Origin: Chroococcidiopsis thermalis PCC 7203
GTDB lineage: Bacteria; Cyanobacteriota; Cyanobacteriia; Cyanobacteriales; Chroococcidiopsidaceae
NCBI RefSeq assembly: GCF_000317125.1
Contig: NC_019695.1
Span: 1,848,336 to 1,912,335, forward strand
DNA length: 64,000 nucleotides
Reading direction: 5' to 3'
Shown here: positions 689 through 20,094 of the stretch, piece after piece
Layout: each line of letters opens with the position of its first letter
Numbering within the stretch: the first letter of the stretch is position 1
The notes under the pieces: model-generated
The model's database searches: none
Seen by the model: only the letters and a program-made list of their open reading frames with translations
Told to the model about the DNA's origin: nothing
Program-made: the position numbers and the translations under genes

Positions 689-2025
689 TACTTAATACAA
701 GTATCGATGAGTTCCTCAACTCCCCTGACTGGGAGAATTGGGATATTTAATTTATGAGATAACTCTTCTATTGTCATATCATCCAAAAAACAGTTTTCGC
801 CATACTTCAGCATCACGGCAGGCAGTATGACCGCGTTACCTAAGTCTTTACCACATAACCCTTCTAATAAATCTTGTCCTGTGAGTAATCCGGTGACAGA
901 AATTTTTTGTCCCCAATAGTGACTACACAGAGCTACCATATCTATCCGCAGCCCATTTACTTGATTTAACTGTTGTAAAATTGGTTGAAACGCTTTTTCT
1001 ACGGCATTACCAACAACCCAGATAAATCGGCGTGATGGCTCGACTTGCAGCGGAAGATGTTTGGCTGCACTAGCAAAATGTTTTAAAAATAGGCGAATTG
1101 AACCCACACCGTTATCGATTTGAGGATAATCTTCATAATGAGATTGCGGTGGTAAATCCTCCCCTGCAACCAAAAACCACTCGTCTGCTAACCAGGCAAA
1201 GTTAGTGCCTAACTGCTGGCGAAATTTCTGCTGCAAGGCTTTGACTTGGGCTATGACTTCGGCTGCTTTTTCTGGAGTCACTGGAATTAACTCATCTTCA
1301 TCTGGACGAAACCGTGTCAAGCCTACTGGTACGACAGCAACAGAAGTAACTGCTGGTACTTCCCCAGGATCGCCAAGATAAAATTTTGCTAAATCGAGCA
1401 ACGTTCTTTCCAGATGTATGCCATCGTTAATCCCAGGACAAACAACAACTTGAGCGTGAATTTGCAGTCTTCGTTCTCGAAACCATTCAATCTGCTCTAA
1501 AATTTGAGCGGCTCTAGGATTTTTTAGCAGCCGCACCCTAACTTCAGGTTCGGTAGCGTGAACTGAGACATACAAAGGAGACAGGCGCATTTGTTCGATT
1601 CGCTGCCATTCCTTTTGGGTGAGGTTTGTCAGTGTCAGGTATGAGCCGTAAAGAAAGCTAAGGCGATAGTCATCATCCTTTAGGTATAAACTCTGTCGCT
1701 TACCTGGAGGTTGCTGGTCGATAAAACAGAACGGACAGCGATTGTTACACTGAATTAACCCATCGAACAGGGCTGTCTCAAACTCTAGTCCTAAATCTTC
1801 GTCGTAGTCTTTCTCAATTTCAACCGTATGAGTTTTACCTGCTGCATCTAAGACATCCAGTTGCAGCACTTCATCAGCACACAAAAACTGATAATCGATT
1901 AAGTCACGCGGACGAGTATCGTTGATGGATACGATCGCATCTCCTGGTTCAAAGCCAATCTCAGCAGCGATGGAATCTGGTAAAACCTTGGAAATGCGGG
2001 CAGGACGAATAGTGATGTCACTCAT
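688..2025 (-). CDS. PDZ-containing radical-SAM-like FeS protein (TIGR03279/DUF512 family)
   Basis: This 445-residue protein starts with a PDZ-like segment (residues 5-60, with the turn GFEPGDAIVSIND). A cysteine cluster CNNRCPFC (C93, C97, C100) follows, with the CX3CX2C spacing of radical-SAM iron-sulfur sites, and the C-terminal part is of DUF512 type. The family is described as a cyanobacterial FeS oxidoreductase of unknown reaction. I chose the ATG at 2025 (MSDITIRPAR). The frame stays open up to 2154, but that extension is made only of LPQLPG-like repeats and spacer sequence. The stop overlaps the start of the downstream secreted-protein gene. Confidence 0.85.
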   Translation of the reverse strand: MSDITIRPARISKVLPDSIAAEIGFEPGDAIVSINDTRPRDLIDYQFLCADEVLQLDVLDAAGKTHTVEIEKDYDEDLGLEFETALFDGLIQCNNRCPFCFIDQQPPGKRQSLYLKDDDYRLSFLYGSYLTLTNLTQKEWQRIEQMRLSPLYVSVHATEPEVRVRLLKNPRAAQILEQIEWFRERRLQIHAQVVVCPGINDGIHLERTLLDLAKFYLGDPGEVPAVTSVAVVPVGLTRFRPDEDELIPVTPEKAAEVIAQVKALQQKFRQQLGTNFAWLADEWFLVAGEDLPPQSHYEDYPQIDNGVGSIRLFLKHFASAAKHLPLQVEPSRRFIWVVGNAVEKAFQPILQQLNQVNGLRIDMVALCSHYWGQKISVTGLLTGQDLLEGLCGKDLGNAVILPAVMLKYGENCFLDDMTIEELSHKLNIPILPVRGVEELIDTCIK

Positions 2026-17834: not shown

Positions 17835-17965
17835 GAATTTAGAACCACCTTTTACAATCTTCTCTAGTCTAGAATTATCATTCTTTGAGCCTATAAATAA
17901 ATTCTTCCAATAGAAGTAATTGAAATGGTAATTGGTAATAGGTAGTTGGCTCGACCTTGGTTTGT

Positions 17966-17998
17966 CTTTGCGCCTCTGCGTCTTTGCGCGACATAAAA
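17966..17998. repeat. Dispersed repeat CGCAAAGACGCAGAGGCG (minus orientation)
   Basis: The core appears as its complement near 17968-17992 and continues into GCGACAT. Further copies lie at about 26252-26278, 26523-26552 and 60188-60220. Copies are about 30 bp and occur outside genes, sometimes extending false start frames. Confidence 0.8.
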
Positions 17999-18031
17999 AA
18001 ATCAATTACCAAAACCAGTCAAATTCCCCTA

Positions 18032-18081
18032 TAAAAAGCTATCCGCTCTTACTAGGGATCTTGCGATCGAAGTAAGAGCGG
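18032..18081 (-). terminator. Intrinsic terminator-like hairpin
   Basis: The 10-bp perfect arms CCGCTCTTAC/GTAAGAGCGG (18072-18081 and 18043-18052) are followed on the minus strand by ATAGCTTTTT. The T-run begins a few bases after the stem, so efficiency is uncertain. Confidence 0.6.
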
Positions 18082-18180
18082 TCTAGTTGGGTCTTCAGAT
18101 TGAAACCTGACTGCCGGAAGGAACTCCAAACCAGCCTGGGTCTTTGAGTTATCTCAGTCTCAAAAAGACTAAGGCTAACT

Positions 18181-18252
18181 TTAGAGAACGGCTCCGGCGC
18201 GCAGCCGGCTAGCTTCAACCTGATGACCCATGCATTTACTACTTTCTATCAT
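18181..18252 (-). CDS. Possible 23-residue peptide
   Basis: The ORF begins MIESSKCMGH and ends SRLRAGAVL, with one Cys. It is preceded at ideal spacing by AAGGAGGTGAT. It is neither a membrane helix nor a signal peptide and matches no small photosystem subunit I know. Part of the coding sequence (CCGGC-TGCGC-GCCGG) can also form a hairpin, so it may act as a leader peptide rather than a product. Only the very strong ribosome site supports expression. Confidence 0.4.
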   Translation of the reverse strand: MIESSKCMGHQVEASRLRAGAVL

Positions 18253-18396
18253 GGGCATCACCTCCTTGTTGCCTAAGCGGTCTTAGTCTCAAGAGGTCAG
18301 AGCGTTTAGCCCTGCCGTCGTTTGCTTTACTTACGATAACACACGATTTGCGTTTTGCGTGAAATCCAGTTATCAGTTGTCAGTTGTCGTAGGGGA

Positions 18397-18439
18397 GGAC
18401 AGTTGTGTGCGGGGGTATCCCCCGTTGAGCAAACTGTCC
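18397..18439. repeat. Long hairpin in spacer
   Basis: GGACAGTT...AAACTGTCC encloses an inner palindrome GCGGGGGTATCCCCCG. It lies among GTCAGTTGTC repeats and looks like a small dispersed element. A further shared segment (AACGCTGCGCTACACTCC-like) at about 18535-18560 recurs near 50150. Confidence 0.6.
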
Positions 18440-18622
18440 GTGCGGGTGCGCGCCAGCAGATTCACGGGCTTTAGCCATAATCTTTGGTCAAAACCCGCCC
18501 GTCCAGTTGTCAGTTATCGTCAACTGTCTTCATGGAGTGTAGCGCAGCGTTTACCGTCAACTATTCACCTTCTTCATAATTTAGCGATCGCCAAAACAAG
18601 ATTTGATTAAGCAGAGCAATTT

Positions 18623-19035: not shown

Positions 19036-20094
19036 TTAGAGTGCGTTACCGCGAGGTAGTACTTCCTCAGGGAACTCGAAGTTTTCGTGGGGTTGGTCTT
19101 GAGGAGCCATCCAAGCACGGATGCCCTCGTTAAGCAGAATGTTCTTGGTGTAGAAAGTCTCGAACTCGGGGTCTTCTGCTGCCCGCAGCTCTTGAGAGAC
19201 GAAGTCGTATGCCCGCAGGTTCACCGCCAAGCCGACGACTCCCACTGCACTCATCCACAGTCCAGTTACAGGCACGAACAACATGAAAAAGTGCAACCAG
19301 CGCTTGTTGGAAAAGGCAATCCCGAAAATCTGCGACCAGAAACGGTTTGCCGTCACCATCGAATAGGTCTCTTCCGATTGAGTCGGGTTGAAAGCGGGGA
19401 AGGTGTTGGAGCTATCGCCGTCTTCAAACAGGGTGTTTTCCACCGTCGCCCCGTGAATCGCGCACAACAGCGCTCCACCTAGTACTCCCGCTACTCCCAT
19501 CATGTGGAACGGGTTGAGCGTCCAGTTATGGAACCCTTGGAAGAACAGCAAGAAGCGGAAAATTGCCGCGACTCCAAATGAAGGTGCAAAAAACCAGCCG
19601 GACTGTCCTAAGGGGTAGAGCAAGAAGACGCTGACAAACACCGCAATTGGTCCAGTGAATGCTAATGCGTTGTATGGTCTGATGCCGACCAAGCGAGCAA
19701 TTTCTAGCTGCCGCAGGCAGAATCCAATCAGCGCAAATGCTCCGTGTAAGGCGACAAATGCCCACAAGCCGCCGAGTTGACACCAGCGCGTGAAGTCCCA
19801 GTTCGCTTCTGGTCCCCACAAGAACAGCAATGAGTGTCCCATGCTGTTGGCTGGGGTCGATACGGCTACGGTTAAGAAGTTGGCTCCTTCTAGGTAACTG
19901 CTAGCAATCCCGTGGGTGTACCACGAGGTGACGAATGTGGTTCCGGTCAGCCATCCACCTAGTGCTAGGTAGGCGCAGGGGAATAATAATAGCCCCGACC
20001 AGCCGACGAATACAAATCTATCGCGCTTGAGCCAGTCGTCGAGAACGTCAAACCATCCTCTTTGACTCGGTGCGCGTCCTACTGCGATTGTCAT
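19036..20094 (-). CDS. psbD: Photosystem II D2 protein
   Basis: D2 pairs with D1 to form the photosystem II reaction centre in the thylakoid membrane. All key residues are present in the 352-residue protein: Y160 (tyrosine D), H189, H197 (special-pair ligand), H117, Q129, N142, H214 and H268 (iron ligands) and W253 (QA pocket). The gene stands alone with its own terminator instead of overlapping psbC, like the second psbD copy of many cyanobacteria. Several positions differ from the D2 sequences I remember ([32 protein letters not shown]), so it may be a diverged paralogue. Confidence 0.96.

Follow-up and report, generated by a model that had tools for sequence, protein, structure and literature searches.

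The window analysed here, a 64,000-nucleotide stretch of the Chroococcidiopsis thermalis PCC 7203 genome, carries on its minus strand a short structured element with psbD upstream (19036-20094) and genes for a HEAT-repeat protein and a CpeS/CpcS-type protein downstream. The position of an extended -10 promoter motif (TG-T-TATCGT, 18333-18341), conserved among relatives, points to a transcript of ~290 nt running from about 18326 to 18033; the coordinates in the earlier note on this DNA stop about 20 nt short of this promoter. Inspection by eye picks out a hairpin in the 5' UTR (CAGGGC-UAAAC-GCUCUG, 18298-18314) whose arms differ in sequence yet stay complementary in most Nostocales and Chroococcidiopsis-type relatives. 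Next comes the Shine-Dalgarno (SD) sequence AAGGAGGUGAU at 18267-18257, which together with the start codon we refer to as segment A. The earlier note had singled out this locus for an 11-base anti-SD match in front of a 23-codon ORF, and both are indeed found there on the minus strand: the 11-nt match, AAGGAGGTGAT as DNA, occurs once in the window against 0.02 copies expected by chance, whilst the ORF (18252-18181, ATG at 18252-18250) encodes the peptide MIESSKCMGHQVEASRLRAGAVL and ends in TAA.

The second half of the ORF contains segment B (18229-18192), the 5' arm of a long helix whose 3' arm, segment C (CUUCCGGCAGUCAGGUUUCAAUCUGAAGACCC, 18120-18089), lies downstream of the stop codon. A stem-loop formed by CTTAGTCT and AGACTGAG follows the stop codon (18173-18153); it is variable, being present in most relatives and missing from 2 of 43 aligned loci (L019 and L026), and is dispensable. 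The terminator-like hairpin that the earlier note placed after the ORF lies at 18086-18033, with conserved flanks (CUA-GA-CCGC...GCGG-A-UAG) and a U run. The folding energy of the 299-nt region is unusually low (z = -5.5), with none of 200 shuffles reaching it. Short repeat units (ACAACTGACAACTG) occupy positions 18360-18560, between psbD and the element, and a dispersed repeat of ~39 nt (CGCGCAAAGACGCAGAGGCGCAAAGAC..., 17962-18000, minus strand) with at least four more genome copies lies just 3' of it. The element itself is single-copy in its own genome, the other short matches being to this repeat.

The element is present across the Cyanobacteriia. A DNA search recovered it in 57 of 60 relatives spanning more than 40 genera, and this is the least biased count since the search required neither the SD nor the ORF. 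Scanning GTDB genomes with a 20-nt pattern gave 116 loci, nearly all cyanobacterial; as the pattern contains the SD and start codon, their conservation within this set is circular. A covariance model of the element, made from 43 diverse alignment rows, matched 123 of 386 genomes in a sample of the phylum, with one match per genome, and a query taken from one weak match located a version encoding 17 amino acids in 93 of 151 Cyanobiaceae (picocyanobacteria). Only noise-level matches, in 4 of 60 genomes, were seen in the non-photosynthetic order of G126, and no match to the element was found in the viral contigs, phages and plasmids searched. Outside the cyanobacteria, four Chloroflexota loci (L139, L052, L042 and L055, scoring 40, 34, 21 and 19 bits, respectively) show the plan of the element, with a 15-amino acid ORF, a hairpin in which the ORF pairs with the region downstream, a sigma-70-like promoter and a terminator. 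Homology of these loci to the cyanobacterial element is likely, not proven, the model scores being partly circular because the loci were found with the pattern that contains the SD and start codon. Two further loci from the same scan, L088 and L106, resemble chance matches and were set aside.

Several features point to translation of the ORF. Amongst 157 distinct ORFs from outside the picocyanobacteria, 147 encode 23 amino acids, eight 24, one 25 and one 17; these length changes are of whole codons and the in-frame stop is kept, including where one codon has been inserted. The stop is TAA in 110 cases and TAG in 47, with TGA found in L188 and in picocyanobacteria. All 157 begin with ATG, although the search demanded ATG in part of the set, whilst many picocyanobacteria have GTG in its place. 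The GGAGGUGAUG portion of the SD shows no variation in the 43-row alignment. We predict translation from the retention of the SD, start codon, frame and stop, from length changes in whole codons and from the replacement of ATG by GTG. The variation within the ORF is only mildly coding-like (entropies of 0.33, 0.44 and 0.50 at the three codon positions), and AGT AGT, CTG and GGT codons barely vary even where synonymous change is possible. Much of the ORF is therefore conserved in its nucleotides more than in its amino acids, and the peptide, which on inspection is polar with no membrane stretch, may matter less than the RNA. We conclude that the ORF is likely to be translated and that the RNA itself is probably also under strong selection. 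Codons 4 and 5 are serine codons, nearly always AGT AGT in most relatives; by our estimate, the leading edge of an elongating ribosome would run into the long helix at roughly this point.

Covariation supports a fold comprising the B:C helix and the terminator. In the 43 sequences, 98.0% of B:C cells are paired and 11 pairs show two-sided changes; both partners have changed in 77 cells, compared with 22 in shuffles and no more than nine when the register is slid. The clearest covarying pair (columns 83-229) takes five pair types and lies within the codon of a free residue. The terminator stem covaries as well, with 98.4% of cells paired and both partners changed in 56 of them, against 14 in shuffles. 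The two helices occupy separate alignment columns and coexist. The base of the terminator keeps an asymmetric internal loop in which GA faces A, and this loop recurs in picocyanobacteria. The pairs that close the internal loop differ between the 43-row alignment and the picocyanobacterial loci L202-L231. Such a conserved loop goes beyond the needs of a plain terminator. Pairing of a 5' CCGYUU motif with the 3' arm of the terminator was also considered: on reading the alignment it is possible in 40 of 43 rows, but the other three have CCA and there is no covariation, and we rejected it.

Segment B also has a second potential partner. Within the ORF, CAUGGG-U-CAUC is the complement of the start region GAUGCCCAUG, and in fold computations lacking segment C this A:B pairing appears in 42 of 43 sequences, leaving the start codon only 0.04 unpaired on average. 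When C is included, B:C forms in 41 of 43, A:B is gone in most and the start codon is 0.58 unpaired on average. The hiding of the start codon depends on the ORF sequence: with codon-shuffled ORFs and no C, openness is 0.51 rather than 0.04. A:B is nearly invariant and so unable to show covariation, but codon 7 bears upon it. This codon encodes at least ten different residues and yet has C (63/69) or T (6/69) as its third base, a restriction required for pairing with the G of AUG and not for B:C. In the Chloroflexales, A and B could by sequence form 13 contiguous pairs with a different sequence. Folding does not predict A:B for picocyanobacteria, two of the four Chloroflexota copies (L042 and L055) or some deep lineages, and the switch may therefore not be the ancestral function. 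On these computations, an A:B/B:C switch would belong to most, not all, members.

The genetic surroundings bear on whether the element acts on a neighbouring gene. A TGnTATnnT-like motif is found upstream in 58 of 69 non-redundant relatives (26% being expected in shuffled upstream regions), at a nearly fixed distance from the SD (median 73 nt, quartiles 71-75). The earlier note had proposed a leader-peptide attenuator and, from the HEAT-repeat and cpcS genes, a link to phycobiliproteins. Those neighbours are found downstream only in the genus of the window. In the Nostocales, psbD is commonly upstream, with pterin-4a-carbinolamine dehydratase (PCD), an OprB/SLH porin and cysteine synthase downstream; many unicellular forms have CbiA upstream and a porin downstream, and others QueA upstream (QueA and cysteine synthase were identified by sequence reading). 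Assemblies often end about 300 nt upstream of the element, which we attribute to duplication of psbD. Across most cyanobacteria PCD and OprB porin genes lie downstream, in many genomes next on the same strand, as regulation of a downstream gene in cis would need. However, the neighbour varies by lineage, and in L185, L191, L194, L197 and L200 the next gene lies 10-80 nt away on the opposite strand, which speaks strongly against any general leader role and takes away the phycobiliprotein link. Nor was a pairing found that would exclude the terminator. The alternative pairings described in the earlier note both exist in the window, but the one preceding the ORF, GAGACTAAG with CTTAGTCT, shows no conservation (its longest helix averages 5.0 bp, against 4.9 bp with partners re-dealt among sequences), whilst the post-stop stem is the variable one described above. 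The ORF contains no run of regulatory codons either, the codon table showing only the AGT AGT pair, and we regard attenuation as very improbable. From its sequence, the element appears to be a stand-alone, single-copy gene with its own promoter and terminator. In this respect the earlier note is supported: conservation, covariation, a conserved reading frame, promoter and terminator all agree with a small peptide gene on a structured transcript that has a strong ribosome site.

Amongst other readings of such a gene, the most serious is a mainly trans-acting sRNA in which the ORF serves to bring ribosomes that open B:C and free the conserved 3' arm for target mRNAs, the peptide being a by-product. 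The nucleotide-level conservation of the ORF exceeds codon-type variation, as this would predict, and the 17- and 15-amino acid versions drop C-terminal residues and keep B:C. What stays unpaired and conserved in the full fold, however, is the ribosome binding site and first codons, with no free seed in C, and we think this reading unlikely, if worth keeping in mind. Another reading has a structured RNA whose ORF is not translated and whose SD-like motif binds 16S rRNA or a protein. It would fit the very strong 11-nt match and the conserved nucleotides, but is made very improbable by the retention of ATG or GTG, of spacing, of an in-frame stop and of whole-codon length changes. In its timing the computed folding resembles that of type I toxin mRNAs such as hok and tisB, in which the nascent fold keeps the start region covered for as long as the 3' part is missing. 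An mRNA of this kind, with translation delayed by metastable folding and an antisense antitoxin, is nonetheless extremely improbable here: the peptide is polar and not a hydrophobic toxin, the gene is single-copy and vertically conserved with no phage or plasmid match, and no conserved antisense promoter was seen by eye.

With moderate confidence, we favour an explanation in which an autonomous single-copy gene gives rise to a structured small mRNA of ~290 nt that may be a dual-function RNA and that controls by its folding when the 23-amino acid peptide is translated. In the nascent RNA, A would pair with B in the middle of the ORF and hide the start codon; once C has been made, B:C would form and expose the ribosome binding site. 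As exposure would follow only after synthesis of C, we propose that a molecule has to be complete before its translation starts. To read the ORF, a ribosome has to open B:C, and we propose that this couples translation of the ORF to the condition of the 3' arm. The timing of translation is what the folding model suggests; the output may be the peptide, the 3' arm once freed, or the two together. Small autonomous transcripts that combine a structured RNA with a short-peptide mRNA, such as SgrS/SgrT, SR1/SR1P and RNAIII, offer a likeness in working only: in the present element the ORF itself supplies an arm of the main helix, and shared sequence is not expected.

The earlier note's statement that no element like this had been described is probably wrong. 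The Synechocystis 6803 sRNA ncl0160 has homologues in 83 cyanobacterial strains and a likely peptide of 23-25 amino acids, its ORFs starting with ATG, rarely GTG, behind a ribosome binding site and ending in TAA (47), TAG (34) or TGA (2) (PMC4734099). The present element shares the ORF of 23-25 codons, the ATG or GTG start with a ribosome binding site, the ranking of stop codons and the occurrence in heterocystous and other strains. Matching the two descriptions, we consider it very probable that the element is the Nostoc/Synechocystis ncl0160; transcription would then be supported too, since it entered into that study's selection. The published account, from a homologue set that excluded the marine Prochlorococcus/Synechococcus lineage, describes how the gene is conserved, shows a predicted fold and a logo of the peptide, and inferred translation independently; its main text reports neither an A:B/B:C switch nor a test for covariation, and gives no promoter, synteny or Chloroflexota relatives (PMC4734099). 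A limited literature search found no published function for ncl0160. Yfr6, or Downstream-peptide (glutamine-II, RF01704), is also a cyanobacterial RNA, of ~240 nt, with a short central ORF (PMC1242208, PMC2864571), but that ORF encodes 33 amino acids and conservation is confined to a motif in the 5' UTR. None of the 4227 families of Rfam 15, RF01704 included, gave a covariance-model match to the element at the gathering threshold or even at E ≤ 10, and we take Yfr6 to be a different element. The element is thus probably already catalogued as ncl0160 and yet absent from Rfam, whilst earlier descriptions cover neither its predicted folding switch nor what the RNA is for.

Few single-copy RNA genes are kept across nearly all cyanobacteria, and a model comprising promoter, ORF, helices and switch turns a decade-old catalogue entry into a case testable directly in Synechocystis or Nostoc. 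The possible Chloroflexota relatives would move its origin far back. More tentatively, the element may be an ancient single-copy RNA gene of the Cyanobacteriia and some Chloroflexota in which the ORF is an arm of a three-way switch, letting the RNA report on, or set the timing of, its own translation; it would then represent a class of autonomous, translation-gated riboregulators outside Rfam. Amongst the individual contigs, the metagenome-assembled L136 has the SD and start codon of the element joined in frame to a porin-like protein (about 1580-1640, minus strand), in what looks like recombination or misassembly, and L148, from a record titled Candidatus Gracilibacteria, has the cyanobacterial element and is probably a mis-binned contig.
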